This document shows positions 14,311 to 32,331 of a DNA stretch of 49,132 nt, piece after piece. The notes beneath the pieces were generated by a model. It saw only the letters and a list, made by a program, of their open reading frames with translations. It was not told where the DNA came from and searched no databases. Location: the NCBI GenBank assembly GCA_010014665.1, contig RZYF01000003.1, forward strand, positions 1 to 49,132, in the 5' to 3' direction. The position numbers and the translations under genes are program-made. This stretch comes from Candidatus Saccharimonadota bacterium. Lineage in GTDB: Bacteria > Patescibacteriota > Saccharimonadia > Saccharimonadales > Saccharimonadaceae. Positions within the stretch are counted from its first letter, which is position 1. Each line of letters opens with the position of its first letter.

Positions 14311-15339
14311 ATGAACCAAGACGACCAACCAACTTATACACTCCAAACACCTGCTCAAGCCGATGCTCAGCAAACAATCCCTACAACACCGGACAATTTA
14401 ACTGCGATAGCCGCCCAGCCCAGTGTCCGAGGCAAGTCACGACTCCCGATTATCGTTGCTATCATAACCGCACTAGTGCTGATAAGTGGCCTTATAGGTG
14501 GATTTCTCTGGTGGCAGTCAATAGAGCAAAAATCCCAAGATCAACAAAACGTCGCATCAGTCGTAAGCGAGTTTTTTGAAGCTTCCCGCCTAGACCAAAC
14601 CGAACGTCTCGATCAAATAATAGCTGCCGATGCCGACGAAAAATTTATCGAGAGCTATCATAAAATTGCCAAGCAAATCGGACGCGAATGCAAAGCCGAG
14701 CCGACAGACGTTTCAGTTTTATCCAGTAAACCGACTACGGCCATCATGACGACAAGCTGCATTCCTAAACAATCTTGGGAGTTTGAACTAACCAAAGACT
14801 CTGACTTATCATGGAAGATTACTGCCGTCGAAGGAACAAACTTAGTACCTGATATCAAACAAGCATTAGCTATCGACCCGTACGTAAATATAAGTATCTA
14901 CGAGGATGAAAATAAACCCAAGCCCGGGAGTTGTCTAGTACCAGACGACGCTGCGCTGTTCAATGGAACGTCACTGCCGCGCGATCCATTTCTCTATTTT
15001 TATCACGAAAATATATTGTTCGAAACAGATTCACTAAAATACTTCCCTACCGAAAAAGCCACGGACCAATTTGATGCCCTAGAGCGATTCTATCGCCTTA
15101 CAGCTCAACGTAGATATCACTTTATAATTACCCCAGAAAGCTATGCTTCACCTTACAAAGAACCTATCCTCAAACTAGCGAACGACCGTGCAGAAGCAGT
15201 CCAAGAGTCACTTCTAAAACGTGGTATACCTAGGGCACGTATAACCATAGAAAACCCAGTCGACGAAACCCGTACTGCACCTGAACAATCGCGCGGGGTA
15301 AAAGTAAATATCCAAGCTAGTCGCTCTTGTGAGCCATAG
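14311..15339 (+). CDS. membrane-anchored protein with OmpA-like C-terminal domain, tandem paralogue
   Basis: TM near residues 45-70; domain with ILFETDSLKYF...LANDRAEAVQESLLKRGIPRARITIENP, matching the upstream gene. Confidence 0.65.
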   Translation: MNQDDQPTYTLQTPAQADAQQTIPTTPDNLTAIAAQPSVRGKSRLPIIVAIITALVLISGLIGGFLWWQSIEQKSQDQQNVASVVSEFFEASRLDQTERLDQIIAADADEKFIESYHKIAKQIGRECKAEPTDVSVLSSKPTTAIMTTSCIPKQSWEFELTKDSDLSWKITAVEGTNLVPDIKQALAIDPYVNISIYEDENKPKPGSCLVPDDAALFNGTSLPRDPFLYFYHENILFETDSLKYFPTEKATDQFDALERFYRLTAQRRYHFIITPESYASPYKEPILKLANDRAEAVQESLLKRGIPRARITIENPVDETRTAPEQSRGVKVNIQASRSCEP

Positions 15340-21613: not shown

Positions 21614-22228
21614 ATGGAGTACGTGAGTATACAGATAGATACATCATCCAAACAACATTTAACCGATATTCTAAACATTATTGGTTTTATATTAGCAGTC
21701 GTAATCGGCGCTTGGATGATAAATATGTTCGTCTTTCGTAGTTTTAATGTTAGTGGACCAAGTATGGAAGACACTCTACATACAAGTGATCGTCTAATCG
21801 TAAATCGATTACCTGTTACGTGGGACAGTGTCCGCGGGCGATCTTATGTACCAAATCGAGGTGACATTATTGTGTTCAGAAACCCTCAATTTGGATCGAA
21901 TGCCTTACATGACGAATATATTGTTAAACGTGTTATAGCGCTTCCTGGCGAATACGTTGAGTTGACTAACGGCAGATTCACTGTTTATAACGATTCTGAA
22001 AAAAATAATCCTATAGATGTCGACAAAGAGTACCCAGGAGCAAAATATCCCACTGAAGGTGAAGTTCACATGGAAGTACCAGAAGGTGAAGTATTCGTTG
22101 CTGGCGACAATCGCAATGGTGGGCACAGTTTCGATTCTAGAAATGGTCTTGGTACAGTGCCTTTTGCTTCAATCATCGGGCCCGTAGTAATACGTATTTA
22201 TCCTTTTGAACAAATTCGTTTATTCTAA
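21614..22228 (+). CDS. lepB: signal peptidase I
   Basis: FNVSGPSMEDTLHTSDRLIVNRL, VKRVIALPGE, VFVAGDNRNGGHSFDSRNGLGTVP. Confidence 0.93.
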   Translation: MEYVSIQIDTSSKQHLTDILNIIGFILAVVIGAWMINMFVFRSFNVSGPSMEDTLHTSDRLIVNRLPVTWDSVRGRSYVPNRGDIIVFRNPQFGSNALHDEYIVKRVIALPGEYVELTNGRFTVYNDSEKNNPIDVDKEYPGAKYPTEGEVHMEVPEGEVFVAGDNRNGGHSFDSRNGLGTVPFASIIGPVVIRIYPFEQIRLF

Positions 22229-22268
22229 AAATCGATAGTTTGTCGTTAATTAAACGGACTGGATAAAT

Positions 22269-23159
22269 TTAAAACAATAATTTCTTTAGATTATCTAAGT
22301 CTTTTTCTGACTTATAAGATATGATGATCTGACCACCTTTTGCGGTAGTTTTTTGTACTACTGGAAGAGAAAGTTTGTTGGCTAAGGCCTCAGTAAACTT
22401 TGTTTGAGTTCGTGTCGAACGTACCGCTGTGACACGTTGAGCATCTCCATCTTTTTTGTTGCCATTCTTATAGCCTATAACATACTGTTCAGCTTTCCTA
22501 ACACTCCAGTCCTCTTCTACTATGTGATCAAATAAATCTCTCTGAGCGGCTAGGTCATCGTGTAACGCCAATAATTGTCTACCGTGGCCTTCCGTGATCG
22601 TGCCTTCAGCTATAGCGTATTTTACATAATCCGGTAGCTGTAATAGACGCACGATATTACTGATTGAAGTTGATGAACGACCACCAACTCTTTTTCCGAT
22701 CTCGTCATTAGTAAGATTAAACTGATTTTTAAGTTTCAGATATGCTGTTGCCATTTCCATCGGATTAAGATCTTCGCGTTGTAAATTCTCAATCAAAGCT
22801 AGTTCGAGTTTATGTTGGCTAGTAGCGGTTCGGACTAAAGCCGGAATTTTTCTCAGACCGGCTAACCCTGCAGCTCTCCAACGACGTTCGCCGGCAATTA
22901 TCACAAATCCTTGTCGACGAGGGGCTACGACTATAGGTTGCAAAACACCAAATGTGATTATTGAATCAGCAAGCTCTTGTAATGAAACTTCATCAAATTT
23001 TCGTCTCGGCTGATCGGGGTTCGGAATAATTTCAGACAACTGTATATATCTTAGTTCAGAAATTTGACCATCGCTAGAGGCTGTCGGGTCAAATGTCTCG
23101 TCAAGCACATCGGTGGGTATTAGAGAATCAAAACCCCTACCCAAGCCTTTTTTACTCAT
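22269..23159 (-). CDS. parB: chromosome partitioning protein ParB
   Basis: PNPDQPRRKFDEVSLQELADSI, IIAGERRWRAAGLAG, ENLQREDLNPMEMA. Confidence 0.95.
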   Translation of the reverse strand: MSKKGLGRGFDSLIPTDVLDETFDPTASSDGQISELRYIQLSEIIPNPDQPRRKFDEVSLQELADSIITFGVLQPIVVAPRRQGFVIIAGERRWRAAGLAGLRKIPALVRTATSQHKLELALIENLQREDLNPMEMATAYLKLKNQFNLTNDEIGKRVGGRSSTSISNIVRLLQLPDYVKYAIAEGTITEGHGRQLLALHDDLAAQRDLFDHIVEEDWSVRKAEQYVIGYKNGNKKDGDAQRVTAVRSTRTQTKFTEALANKLSLPVVQKTTAKGGQIIISYKSEKDLDNLKKLLF

Positions 23160-26881: not shown

Positions 26882-28246
26882 CTACTCAGTTCGCAGGGCT
26901 TCTATAGGATCTAGTTTGGCAGCTTTACGCGCTGGAAACCAACCGGCCAAAACTGCAATAATTATTAACGCAATTAGTAGTTCGACAGCTGAAAGCCATT
27001 CGAACTCAAGAAGATAATTACCTTCTCCTAAATTCAAGGTACTAGTAATCCAGGGATTTAAAAAGTATGTAGCTACCCAGGCCAAACCTACGCCTATAAC
27101 ACCACCGAAAAAGCCAATCCAAGCTGCTTCATAACGAAATAATTGAGATATCTTACGACTACGCATACCTAGCGCCTTCATGAGACCAATTTGACTAGTT
27201 CTCTCTAATACACTGATATACTGCGTATTGACAATCCCAAATACGCTAGCAACCAGAGCTAATACACCAAAACCGGTAACAATGTATTGCAATACATCTA
27301 CAAATTGAAATATTATTTGTTGCACATCCTCAGCAGTCATGGCATATATCTTGTTGTCTTTTTCTAGCCTTTGCTTGAGATCTACAGGGCTCACGCCATC
27401 TCGTGCACGAACGGTGATAGTGTAATATTTTCGATAATCATTAGTACCTTTTGTGGTATATTCTGATATTTCATATGCAGTACTGGAATCAATTACCACT
27501 GATCCATTGCCACCAGTTAGCGAGGATGAGCCATTTTCTCTAATAACCGCCCGGACTACGAACGTGACATCCTTTGTTTGACCCTGCATACGCTCTTCTA
27601 CCGCTTTAGCCCCTCCCGTCATGAAAAGTTGAGTTAGTTCTTCCTGAGAAGGTTGATTAGGCAAACTTTCTATTGTAACTATTACTTTTTTACCAATCAA
27701 CTCACTAGGCTTGAGCCCTAAAGTATCAGAGAAACCTTCTGGCAACACAATATCATTTTCGCCAATTCTCGTACCTTTTGAGGGTAGATTTCCCGCCACT
27801 ACGTCGTTTCTTATAAACGAATCATATCGCGATATGTTCATGGTATATTTCGTTTCACTACCTTCAAATCTAGTGTACTTGGCAGCTATCTGATAAAACG
27901 GCTCCACCCAATCCACGTCATTACGGTCTCGTAACGCATCTATATCTGCTTGAGTCACTAGATCGAGACCTGAACGGGCATCTCTACTATCGCTATATTC
28001 CTGTAACGGTGCGGATCCAACTCGGTTACCTTGGTTGAGCGATTTGTCTTTGAAAGCAATCAGGGTTTGTGGGTCAATGTTTGACTCTATGAGATTTTTT
28101 GAATATTCCCTAGTACCAGCCCCGGCCGCCAAACTCATCATAATCGTAAAAGATCCTACAGCAATAGCTAAACTTGTCAGAATAGTACGACCTTTTGATC
28201 GCCCGATATTTCGTCCAGCTCTATTCATAATATCTAATGTTTTCAC
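26882..28246 (-). CDS. ABC transporter permease (MacB/FtsX type)
   Basis: GRTILTSLAIAVGSFTIMMSLA; C-terminal FtsX-like region ERTSQIGLMKALGMRSRKISQLF. Confidence 0.9.
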   Translation of the reverse strand: MKTLDIMNRAGRNIGRSKGRTILTSLAIAVGSFTIMMSLAAGAGTREYSKNLIESNIDPQTLIAFKDKSLNQGNRVGSAPLQEYSDSRDARSGLDLVTQADIDALRDRNDVDWVEPFYQIAAKYTRFEGSETKYTMNISRYDSFIRNDVVAGNLPSKGTRIGENDIVLPEGFSDTLGLKPSELIGKKVIVTIESLPNQPSQEELTQLFMTGGAKAVEERMQGQTKDVTFVVRAVIRENGSSSLTGGNGSVVIDSSTAYEISEYTTKGTNDYRKYYTITVRARDGVSPVDLKQRLEKDNKIYAMTAEDVQQIIFQFVDVLQYIVTGFGVLALVASVFGIVNTQYISVLERTSQIGLMKALGMRSRKISQLFRYEAAWIGFFGGVIGVGLAWVATYFLNPWITSTLNLGEGNYLLEFEWLSAVELLIALIIIAVLAGWFPARKAAKLDPIEALRTE

Positions 28247-28980
28247 TGGATAATTCTCCTAGCTTTCGTGTTTTTTTGTGAGTACTTTGTTTTAACAGAT
28301 TTGCCCCAATCTCGCTCGCTTACAACATGACCGTCACGTAAATATATTTGTTGTTCACATTTATTAGCCAAATCAAAGTCATGGGTTACTACTACCAGGG
28401 TAGCTCCGTAATTCTTCGAATAATCAAACAATAGTTTTTCAATAACCGCCCCAGTAGCACTGTCAAGATTACCGGTTGGCTCATCAGCAAAGAGAATCTT
28501 AGGATCGTTAACGATAGCTCTAGCAATTGCTAACCGCTGTTTTTGACCACCCGATAAGTTTTTCGCTTTTTGTTTGGCTTTATCTTCGAGTTCTACTGCT
28601 CGTAGCGCTGCCATAATCTTTTCTTTACGCTGTCGATTAGGTACGTCAGCTATCTCGAGTGGCATACTAACGTTTTCGTAACACGTCTCGTTACCCTGAA
28701 CAAAAAAACTTTGGAATATAAAACTCATATCTTGAGCTCGAAACTTGTCGACTTCTTTTTTCTTAAGCATAGTAATATCACGACCGCCCATAATAACACT
28801 TCCGCTTGTCGCCGTATCTAAACCACTCATTATATGCATTAGAGTACTTTTACCACTACCACTTTTGCCGACTATCGCCAGCCTTGTGCCTTCGTCTATA
28901 CTAAAGCTAACGTCATCTAGAGCAACAAACGTATTGTCTTTTTTCCCATAAATCTTCCCAATTTGTCTAATTTCTATCAT
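28243..28980 (-). CDS. ABC transporter ATP-binding protein (MacB/LolD type)
   Basis: GKSGSGKST Walker A, LSGGQKQRLAIARA signature, ILFADEPTGNLD Walker B. Confidence 0.95.
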   Translation of the reverse strand: MIEIRQIGKIYGKKDNTFVALDDVSFSIDEGTRLAIVGKSGSGKSTLMHIMSGLDTATSGSVIMGGRDITMLKKKEVDKFRAQDMSFIFQSFFVQGNETCYENVSMPLEIADVPNRQRKEKIMAALRAVELEDKAKQKAKNLSGGQKQRLAIARAIVNDPKILFADEPTGNLDSATGAVIEKLLFDYSKNYGATLVVVTHDFDLANKCEQQIYLRDGHVVSERDWGKSVKTKYSQKNTKARRIIQ

Positions 28981-29071
28981 ATATATAGTATATAGGAACG
29001 CGTTTCATAAAAAAATAGACTTGAAACGTTTGCGTTTTCGCAGTAAAGTTATTCTAGCGGTAGAAATATCC

Positions 29072-31054
29072 ATGAAACAAATATCATCAATAAAATCTCT
29101 TATACTAAGGTCAATGCCTGTCATAGTGGCATTATCATTAGCTTTTCTGGGCATGCGTGCGTTTGCAGCCAGCACGACCACCGTTCAGGTTAGTGTTGAG
29201 CCTATGGTGGCGGACGTTTGTCTAAATATTGATGGGGTACAGTCATCCGTACCAGAAGGCATGCTAGTAGATTTAGACGGAAACTGCTACACACCAATAA
29301 CTCCTCCTCAGCCGCCCGAACCAATTGATTTATGTTCTAACCTTACGGGTATACAAGAAATCCTACCAGACGGATATTATCGGATTGACTCTGGCCAATG
29401 TTATCTGCAACCACCTCCCCCAGCTATACCGAACGATGTCTGTTTAAATATCGATGGGATACAAGCGTCTGTACCACCTGGGCATTATTTAGATACTTCC
29501 AATAACTGTTTGCCAGCCCCTAACGAAGAAGACATTTGCTTGAATATACCTGGAACCCAGGAGACAGTGCCCGAAGATATGATAATACGAAACGGTAATT
29601 GTTATACACCTGATCCTCCGACAGGGACTGCGTCCCCTGGTAATACTTCTACGGATAGCGATCAGTCTGTTATTGGCGAAGAAGAAAAATTAAAAAATGT
29701 TCCGGATGTCTTGCAACCAGCAGCAAAAGTATTAGTTGAAGCTTTGCCGAAAGAAACTGTTCAATTCTTTAAGGCTCTGCCTGAAGAAACTGCTCAAGAA
29801 ATGCCAAAATACATATTGATTTTAGCGCTTATACTTATGTTTATACCTATACTCCAAGCTATCCGTGAAACAATATTTCATAGACAAATTGCAATTATCC
29901 TAAAAAGAGAACGGAGTATCGCTGAACAAAAAGATAACTTCATTGCACTTGCCTCACATTACCTCAGAACCCCACTAACTGTTATGCGTAACGGTCTAGA
30001 AATGATGCTATCAATCAAGGAGGTGTCAGAGGAAAACACCCAAGATCTATCTAAGACGCTTTCAGGCCTCGACACAGATATCGCTCAAGTCCTTAGTAAT
30101 ATCGAACAGGATACCTCGTTGAAGAATATTAATTTACCACCAGAAGAAAAAGTACCGAGTGTTCTCTCCTCTGTCTATTTATGGACTCCAATTGTAATGT
30201 CTATCATACTTACATTTCTCGCCAACTTTTTCATTGGAGTCGTCGGTAATAAAGAAATAAGTACTAACAATAGTATGGTGCAGGTCCTTATAGTCGCCGG
30301 TTTAGTATTGGGAGTATATCTACTTGCAAGAAATATTTTCATCCAAAAGCACCTGAAAGAAAGAAGTCAACAATTAATAGAACACGAGAAGACTATCGAC
30401 GAAATTCGCAACGCCCTGATTAGTCAACAAACTGAAATTCTAAAACGTAGACTTGACGATATCAATAGAGAGAAAGCACCACTAGAACCTGCCCCGTCAT
30501 ATCATATATTTGAAGATGGCTATATGCGTTTTGTTCGCATGCTTGAAAAATTCCTGTTACTAGGCCAAATCAGGACTGGTGCTAATAGAACTGTGGAAGG
30601 AGTCAATCTACGAGACGCTGTGGAGCAAGTCCTGTTTAATTACCAGAGTGATTTAGCTACCAAAGATATCCGAGTAATCAATGCAACTTCAAACTCAAAA
30701 ATAATTCAAAATGAAGTACTTTTCAATTTTGTGTTAAATTCACTTATAGACAACGCTATAAAATTTAACAAAGAAGGTGGCATTATAACTATCTCAAACA
30801 ATACCAAGGGCCGAACAATCAAAATAGAAATCAGCGATAACGGTATTGGAATCGACAATAACAAACTTGATCAGCTATTTAAGCCCTTTTCACGAGCTAG
30901 CTCGGCTGTCGAATTCAACTACGAAGGCCTCGGGTTTAGCCTGTTCCTAAATAAACTTATCATGGAATACACGGGTGGTTCAATCGCTGCTCAAACAAAC
31001 CCAAATGGTGGCACGCGAATGATCGTAGACACTCCTGTTAAAGTAGTCGTTTAG
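29072..31054 (+). CDS. sensor histidine kinase with N-terminal Cys-paired repeats
   Basis: Signal peptide from ATG at 29072 (track uses TTG 29021); H-box ASHYLRTPLT; N-box NSLIDNAIKF; DNGIGID and GLGFSLFLNKLIMEYTGG. Confidence 0.88.
   Translation: MKQISSIKSLILRSMPVIVALSLAFLGMRAFAASTTTVQVSVEPMVADVCLNIDGVQSSVPEGMLVDLDGNCYTPITPPQPPEPIDLCSNLTGIQEILPDGYYRIDSGQCYLQPPPPAIPNDVCLNIDGIQASVPPGHYLDTSNNCLPAPNEEDICLNIPGTQETVPEDMIIRNGNCYTPDPPTGTASPGNTSTDSDQSVIGEEEKLKNVPDVLQPAAKVLVEALPKETVQFFKALPEETAQEMPKYILILALILMFIPILQAIRETIFHRQIAIILKRERSIAEQKDNFIALASHYLRTPLTVMRNGLEMMLSIKEVSEENTQDLSKTLSGLDTDIAQVLSNIEQDTSLKNINLPPEEKVPSVLSSVYLWTPIVMSIILTFLANFFIGVVGNKEISTNNSMVQVLIVAGLVLGVYLLARNIFIQKHLKERSQQLIEHEKTIDEIRNALISQQTEILKRRLDDINREKAPLEPAPSYHIFEDGYMRFVRMLEKFLLLGQIRTGANRTVEGVNLRDAVEQVLFNYQSDLATKDIRVINATSNSKIIQNEVLFNFVLNSLIDNAIKFNKEGGIITISNNTKGRTIKIEISDNGIGIDNNKLDQLFKPFSRASSAVEFNYEGLGFSLFLNKLIMEYTGGSIAAQTNPNGGTRMIVDTPVKVVV
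29213..29630 (+). repeat. four coding repeats of consensus D[VLI]CxN[IL]xGxQxx[VL]P...C in the kinase ectodomain
   Basis: DVCLNIDGVQSSVPEGMLVDLDGNC / DLCSNLTGIQEILPDGYYRIDSGQC / DVCLNIDGIQASVPPGHYLDTSNNC / DICLNIPGTQETVPEDMIIRNGNC. Confidence 0.9.
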
Positions 31055-31107: not shown

Positions 31108-32331
31108 TTAATTTTTAGACGGCCTTTTGCCTATCGAATTATTCACAGGAGTATTAGCTTCACTTAATGAACTGATTTTCTGCGTATCTTTATATGAATG
31201 TTCTTTGAATTGATGTCGTAGGTTATAAATAGCCATACCTACACCTGTCACAAATGCGATTAAGCCAATTAAAACGCCCACTATTGGGACTGCAATTAAT
31301 AAACCGAGCGCAGCCGCTCCAGCCGTAGCATGAAGTATCATGTTCGAAGACCTACCTTCAAACATCCAACGGCCTAAGTAATATGAAGTTAGCGGAAATG
31401 CTGTAGTAAATATTACCGCATAGCCAACAATTAAAAGTGGTATTATTGGCGCACCTATTATTGTAAAAATAAGAACTATTAGAATCGGAATACTTAGTAA
31501 TATAGCCGCTAGTCCTACCAGAAAAACAAACCCAAGCTTAGGTAAAGATAGTGCAGTCGTCTCGCGAACATTACGCGGCACAATTAGCACCATAGCTATT
31601 GTCAAGATAACGAGGAAGAATATACCACTCGCTATATTTAATATCGAATCAGCGACTGTTGGTGTCGTCTCACGCGATATAGATTCATGACGTATAGCCT
31701 GACCAGCAACCGTACCTTTATAAATTTCTGCATCATCTTGACTCCAATATTGCACATCACCACCAACCCTCGCGCCCTCCGAAACAACAAGTTTAGTAGT
31801 CTCAACCTCAACATGACGACCAACCAAACCATTTATTTCTATTGATTCACTACCGGCTCGTATGTCACGTTGAACAACCCCGTTAATTCTAATTGAAGAC
31901 CCGGCTAATAAAGCGTCTTGTTGAATTACAGCCTTTTTATCAATAGTTAATGTATTAGCAGCTGCAGTCAAATTACCACTAGCCATACCGTTAATCGTTA
32001 TTATACTGCCCGCTACACGTATATCGCCGTCTACCTTGCCTTCAATAGTTAGGTTTCCACCAACACATATGACATCGCCGTCAATTTCTCCATATATATG
32101 TACTGTTTCTGCTGCACAATATAGATCGCCGTTTACCTTGCCTGCGACCGTAATTGTTTCACCAACCATAAACACCGCGCCATCGACAGTCTCGTTAGGG
32201 GCCACAGTAAATACACCGTTATCTGAAATAGCCACCCTACTCGAAGCTAATACTGGTACCGTCCAAGCAATTATCACAAGTCCAGCAAGAACGGTAAAAA
32301 CTGCCAATTTCGTAAACAGGGTTTTTTTCAT
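31108..32331 (-). CDS. membrane protein with bactofilin-like (polymer-forming) beta-helix domain
   Basis: Repeating VNGDLYCAAETVHIYGEIDGDVICVGGNLTIEGKVDGDIRVAGS pattern, then C-terminal TM segments. Confidence 0.75.
   Translation of the reverse strand: MKKTLFTKLAVFTVLAGLVIIAWTVPVLASSRVAISDNGVFTVAPNETVDGAVFMVGETITVAGKVNGDLYCAAETVHIYGEIDGDVICVGGNLTIEGKVDGDIRVAGSIITINGMASGNLTAAANTLTIDKKAVIQQDALLAGSSIRINGVVQRDIRAGSESIEINGLVGRHVEVETTKLVVSEGARVGGDVQYWSQDDAEIYKGTVAGQAIRHESISRETTPTVADSILNIASGIFFLVILTIAMVLIVPRNVRETTALSLPKLGFVFLVGLAAILLSIPILIVLIFTIIGAPIIPLLIVGYAVIFTTAFPLTSYYLGRWMFEGRSSNMILHATAGAAALGLLIAVPIVGVLIGLIAFVTGVGMAIYNLRHQFKEHSYKDTQKISSLSEANTPVNNSIGKRPSKN

Follow-up and report, generated by a model that had tools for sequence, protein, structure and literature searches.

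A histidine kinase family of Saccharibacteria with a membrane hairpin between two DHp domains, proposed to act as a single-chain pseudo-dimer

The window, that is, the whole stretch of 49,132 nucleotides analysed here, lies on a contig of a 0.93 Mb genome, whose nearest relative among the named genomes of the collection is a Candidatus Saccharibacteria MAG (L021, identical to G318). Its forward strand carries a histidine kinase open reading frame at 29021..31054, comprising 677 codons counted from TTG 29021. The ATG at 29072 is the likelier start; it is followed by a stretch that reads like a signal peptide ending between AFA and AS. The encoded protein has the segment order ectodomain-TM1-DHp1(His)-TM2-TM3-DHp2(no His)-CA. 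Two divergent upstream genes at 26882..28980 on the reverse strand encode an FtsX/MacB-like permease and an ABC ATPase, and a convergent downstream gene at 31108..32331, also on the reverse strand, has a bactofilin domain (all assigned by Pfam). In the closest relatives (G001, G002 and G318), the permease/ATPase pair also lies in the vicinity of the kinase; in G027 and G253 it does not. The bactofilin gene accompanies the kinase in G002 and G318. Eight receiver domains were found in the genome, none of them listed on the contig of the window, and a receiver domain adjacent to the kinase occurs only for divergent members in G333 and G350. Two short members without the histidine (L199:7992-9236 and L201:7265-8623) are encoded divergently next to a pair made up of an ordinary kinase and a response regulator of the OmpR type, which they may regulate. 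Elsewhere in the window, a gene at 14311-15339 has a weak match to the OmpA family (E 8e-5, below the cut-off), which is unexpected in a lineage thought to be without an outer membrane.

The extracellular part at 29216..29620 (forward strand) reads as four repeats of ~27 amino acids, each with two cysteines in the pattern C.N..G.Q..P.....N/GC, and no Pfam family matched the window copy of this repeat. Similar repeats (C.N..G.Q..P....NC, ~50% identity) recur at L008:1501-1818 in a frame that has no kinase core, so that the repeat resembles a mobile module of surface proteins. The whole ectodomain comprises ~210 residues in the window kinase and is far larger in its relatives, so that the absence of an extracellular sensor domain, by which BceS-type kinases are defined, does not apply here.

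Three hydrophobic segments are supported by hydropathy, charge pattern and AlphaFold2 (AF2) modelling, all on the forward strand: TM1 at 29807..29863, running from outside to inside; TM2 at 30176..30244, running from inside to outside (YLWTPIVMSIILTFLANFFIGVV, with W-x-P at its start); and TM3 at 30278..30328, running back from outside to inside and continuing into the first helix of DHp2. Over the best 19 residues of each, the mean Kyte-Doolittle hydropathy reaches 2.32, 2.34 and 2.29, respectively, and the loop between TM2 and TM3 has 11 residues. Lys and Arg together number 2.6 per 10 residues behind TM1, 2.2 ahead of TM2 and 3.0 behind TM3, against 1.0 within the TM2-TM3 loop, a distribution that fits a cytoplasmic location of DHp1, DHp2 and CA and an outward location of the hairpin loop. 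AlphaFold renders TM2 as a separate helix and TM3 as unbroken into the next cytoplasmic helix. The first-pass annotation had placed a membrane hairpin between the H-box and the ATPase domain, with the histidine codon near 29957, and had named two observations that would speak against it, namely homologues without the insertion and models in which the segments do not span the membrane. Neither was encountered: the coordinates hold, hydropathy, charge and models agree that the segments are membrane-spanning, and the hairpin is kept in 44 distinct members. TM2 and TM3 are hydrophobic in 44/44 of these, and the proline at the start of TM2 is retained in all but two (42/44). Chance hydrophobic stretches are ruled out as an explanation of the hairpin by this conservation together with the models, and an assembly or frameshift artefact is ruled out by recurrence of the layout in 44 distinct members.

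The segment in front of the hairpin, DHp1 (29903..30130, forward strand), is a HisKA helical hairpin according to Pfam, hhalign and AF2, with the phospho-acceptor His313 (codon 29957-29959, in SHYLRTPL, at the place given in the annotation) followed by Tyr at position H+1. When the whole protein is scanned, Pfam HisKA matches aa 303-348 with 26.7 bits, just below the cut-off of 26.9; DHp1 alone scores 30.9 bits, above it. Comparison by hhalign with a canonical profile of ordinary DHp domains, drawn from Patescibacteria and from other loci, gives a probability of 99.3% (E 7e-21), and AF2 places the two DHp1 helices up to model residue 91 and from 97 to 122. Between the hairpin and CA lies DHp2 (30329..30586, forward strand), a second DHp with Glu472 (codon 30434-30436) at the place equivalent to the histidine. 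It matches the same canonical profile with 95.8% probability and E 8e-9 over 71 columns that include both helices, and neither the reversed alignment nor any of 200 column shuffles that preserve the heptad pattern came anywhere near the real score (0/200). The profiles of DHp1 and DHp2 also match one another (E ~3e-4; 0/200 shuffles). A sequence search of the PDB aligns the DHp2-CA stretch colinearly with the DHp-CA region of HK853 and of WalK/YycG-type kinases.

Among ten members tested, Pfam HisKA matches DHp1 in eight, of which two exceed the curated cut-off. Only in L025 does it match DHp2, there covering the whole model below the cut-off. The halves of L025 scanned singly each contain HisKA a few bits under the curated cut-off, and the whole protein exceeds the cut-off with its best stretch within DHp2. 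The histidine column of DHp2 holds other residues outside the window kinase, and no histidine in any member read. From these profile comparisons, it is well supported that the chain carries two DHps and that the one next to CA is without the acceptor histidine. The annotation had described a coiled coil and a second DHp-like tail after the hairpin; the DHp-like character stands, but the two parts are one complete second DHp that has lost its histidine. A coiled coil only, as a candidate for this region, is ruled out by the profile match as measured against the heptad-preserving shuffles.

The CA domain (30593..31051, forward strand) is identified by Pfam as HATPase_c at aa 569-673 (E 7e-19), so that the hairpin does lie between HisKA and HATPase_c when the domain boundaries proposed for checking are drawn. 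Its N box (30752-30778), G1 box (30836-30856), F box (30878-30898) and G2 box (30923-30943), located from the sequence, are intact in the window kinase, as is the His-x-x-x-Thr-Pro motif of DHp1.

Searches with the window protein, and then with a TM1-to-DHp2 profile that excludes CA, retrieved 44 distinct members that share the layout TM1-DHp-TM2-TM3-DHp2-CA after removal of duplicates and alignment. Full-length matches are present in 25/392 genomes of the class sample (Saccharibacteria) and in 27/392 of the order sample, and all seven genomes available for one family are positive with up to four copies each; outside the class but within the phylum, G430, G530 and G550 are positive. A wide gap in E-values separates the members from ordinary kinases, which match the DHp1 columns only. 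A scan of genome contigs with patterns of close relatives returned full-length relatives only in Saccharibacteria/Patescibacteria records, and no relative was found on viral contigs. A tree built quickly from the CA domains only, with the hairpin columns left out, contains some long branches; one of its branches divides the 42 members from the 41 ordinary kinases (SH-aLRT 97), a split that fits a single origin of the architecture.

Spacing within the family is strict where helices are expected to be continuous. The distance from TM1 to the histidine is 34 amino acids without any length change in all members measurable in full, and that from TM3 to the histidine-equivalent point of DHp2 is 36-37 amino acids across members, whereas the distance from the histidine to TM2 ranges from 61 to 94. 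The two constant lengths fit continuous helices in which phase would be important. The architecture is a variant within histidine kinases, for which the segment order, the hydrophobicity of the hairpin, the homology of the tandem DHps, the absence of the second histidine and the fixed spacing are established.

Many members carry huge surface regions, with open reading frames of up to 6,781 codons. In L203 and L177 (G148:C2 near 22015-22803), the family core lies at the C-terminal end of a 6,781-codon open frame, and in other relatives, frames of 1,400-3,500 codons have fn3 or Ig-like domains, so that very large surface proteins end in a kinase core. Scans of the N-terminal parts of four large relatives detected fn3 domains in two and an Ig-like domain in one. 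At L200:496-2043, a member frame begins after DHp1 beside an integrase-like (DDE) frame, and this member looks to have been cut by an insertion element.

Structure models were obtained with AF2 for single chains of the window protein (pLDDT 85.8, pTM 0.74) and of L025, which is ~25% identical to it (pLDDT 84.1, pTM 0.71), from an alignment of three full-length rows, the rest being CA parts; both models are confident. Packing was read from the aligned ranges and rmsd of structure alignments. HK853 chains align from model residue 57 (HK853 residue 244) to the end of CA, with His260 falling on model residue 73, which is His313; for most of these chains, 220-228 residues are aligned at an rmsd of 3.6-4.5 in both models. 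Chains of WalK/VicK, CusS, KinB and DivL likewise align from the first helix of DHp1, whereas ZraS, CpxA and ShkA chains align from the first helix of DHp2 instead. The latter group is known in part for trans phosphorylation. For HK853, phosphorylation occurs in cis according to the title of PDB 3dge. Because the group aligned on DHp1 thus includes a cis kinase and the group aligned on DHp2 is partly trans, the single chain seems to accommodate an arrangement of the trans type. The alignments suggest that the single CA would sit against the histidine helix of DHp1 of the same chain, as in crystal structures of ordinary kinases, and the simplest reading of the models is one four-helix bundle built from DHp1 and DHp2, with the CA carried by DHp2 poised at the DHp1 histidine. 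A coupling analysis (49 sequences, Neff 47) gave signals between DHp1 helix 1 and DHp2 helix 2 near the expected register, but without statistical power, with a weak intra-hairpin positive control and a null that breaks relatedness as well as pairing, so that they do not count towards the pairing. The unusual phosphotransfer geometry that the first-pass annotation had proposed is unneeded, since both DHps and CA are cytoplasmic, DHp2 stands where a DHp canonically precedes CA, and CA is modelled at the histidine helix of DHp1.

We propose that the protein is a single-chain pseudo-dimer in which DHp1 would supply the histidine and DHp2 would carry the catalytic domain, a reading that we hold to be moderately probable; the intramolecular pairing of DHp1 with DHp2 predicted by the models seems to us about equally probable. 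A DHp would have been duplicated and then split between two membrane-anchored units of one chain: unit 1, TM1-DHp1, with the sole phospho-acceptor histidine, and unit 2, TM2-TM3-DHp2-CA, which has the layout of a whole two-TM kinase (BceS, for instance) but has lost its own histidine. The two DHps would lie side by side in the four-helix bundle, and CA on DHp2 would phosphorylate His313 of DHp1 within the same molecule, the equivalent of trans phosphorylation in a homodimer. A change in the ectodomain could be transmitted through the continuous TM1-DHp1 helix, shifting the histidine helix relative to the hairpin-anchored DHp2-CA half, and the phosphate would then be passed to some response regulator. 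The broader proposal, on which we judge the chances to be evenly balanced, is that this is a natural single-chain kinase in which the protomers of a homodimer have become unequal halves, one with the phospho-histidine only and the other with the catalytic domain only, linked by the hairpin. We infer autophosphorylation, monomeric action and ligand sensing of the window kinase.

The same domains of two chains could instead stack as two homodimer bundles, one of DHp1 and DHp1' and the other of DHp2 and DHp2', such that DHp2 would only dimerise and CA would reach over to DHp1, a division of tasks as between CheA P3 (dimerisation) and P1 (histidine). Both DHps do retain DHp-like helices, the DHps of ordinary kinases form homodimers, and the AF2 runs on one chain gave such bundles no chance to compete. 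Yet both models set the only CA on DHp1 helix 1, within the same chain and in the geometry of ordinary kinases, and the histidine and its counterpart stand approximately equidistant from the membrane (34 and 36 amino acids), which fits side-by-side packing; we regard stacked homodimers as doubtful. A sensory role of the hairpin, which the annotation had also considered, would make it chiefly an intramembrane sensor that, as in BceS, reads what state a partner transporter is in, and the duplication of the DHp would be secondary. The TM2-TM3-DHp2-CA half aligns with whole BceS chains (283 residues at rmsd 6.6 and 287 residues at rmsd 11.7 in the two models), and an FtsX-type ABC transporter adjoins the gene in the closest relatives; against this, the transporter is not near the gene in G027 and G253, the adjoining permease (MacB-like, 454 aa) is not identified as BceB, and the larger and variable part of the protein is the ectodomain. 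The hairpin by itself is no evidence of sensing, and we find a chiefly sensory role very improbable.

A different question is whether the protein is mainly an autokinase at all. DHp1 might serve some other kinase or regulator as a module for phosphotransfer or as a phosphatase, or the whole protein might act through allosteric contact, like pseudokinases such as DivL. Such a role would suit the four members in which the histidine is replaced by N, F, S or Y (L176/L110, L180, L199 and L201), the four others in which G1 is damaged and the histidine kept (L106, L178, L179 and L203), and the position of L199 and L201 beside a regulator/kinase pair. With four members lacking the histidine and at least four with damaged CA boxes, not every member is able to act alone as a kinase. 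In many kinases an acidic residue at H+1 serves as proton acceptor; this position is Tyr in 36/42 members, His in four and Asn in two, and is never acidic. In WalK, the Glu after the histidine is the first proton acceptor, although the reaction is believed to require an additional base (PMC11371814). By analogy, Tyr at H+1 may make the phosphorylation reaction slower. However, Gln or Asn at H+1 is common in ordinary kinases of these genomes too (29/47, with Glu also found and Tyr rare), and the window kinase retains all four ATPase boxes and its His-x-x-x-Thr-Pro motif, so that a role other than autokinase appears to us improbable for it.

Textbook two-component signalling is based on a symmetric DHp homodimer. 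If the single-chain pseudo-dimer is correct, with the histidine and the catalytic domain on unequal DHps of one chain, the family would offer a direct test of whether transmembrane signalling needs dimerisation and a natural single-chain system for the study of cis versus trans phosphorylation. Saccharibacteria are small, and many live attached to other bacteria. The giant adhesin-like receptors of such epibiotic bacteria could then signal singly, without receptor dimerisation, and we speculate that a kinase core on very large surface proteins may sense contact with the partner cell.

No description of a hairpin between DHp and CA, of a tandem DHp or of pseudo-dimer kinases was found in the open-access papers searched. 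With HisKA kinases such as HK853 and WalK/VicK, the window kinase shares a HisKA DHp with histidine, a HATPase_c domain with N, G1, F and G2 boxes, and the modelled geometry of DHp1 helix 1 and CA. It differs from them in the Tyr after the histidine and in the hairpin and histidine-less second DHp inserted where these kinases have one DHp joined directly to CA. In CheA, too, the phospho-acceptor histidine lies apart in the chain from the domain that adjoins the kinase domain, but CheA is soluble and its P1 is an HPt domain, whereas both parts of the window kinase are of DHp type with a membrane hairpin between them. DivL has a single DHp with an acceptor Tyr, Tyr550, aligned on His313; the window kinase keeps the histidine, so that a replacement of the DivL type does not apply to it. 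The DivL structure (PDB 4q20) aligns over DHp1 helix 1 and CA. BceS (PDB 8g3a) has the same succession of two TM helices, a short outer loop and then DHp-CA, but unlike BceS, the window kinase has an ectodomain-TM1-DHp1 unit fused in front and no histidine in the DHp next to CA. The nearest precedent for the proposed monomeric kinase is the LOV kinase EL346, a monomer in its active form, whose own chain occupies the face by which a DHp usually dimerises (PMC10359499). EL346 is soluble and of the HWE/HisKA2 type, with LOV covering the DHp, whereas the window kinase is membrane-bound, has HisKA and HATPase_c by Pfam, and would have its DHp covered by a degenerate second DHp.
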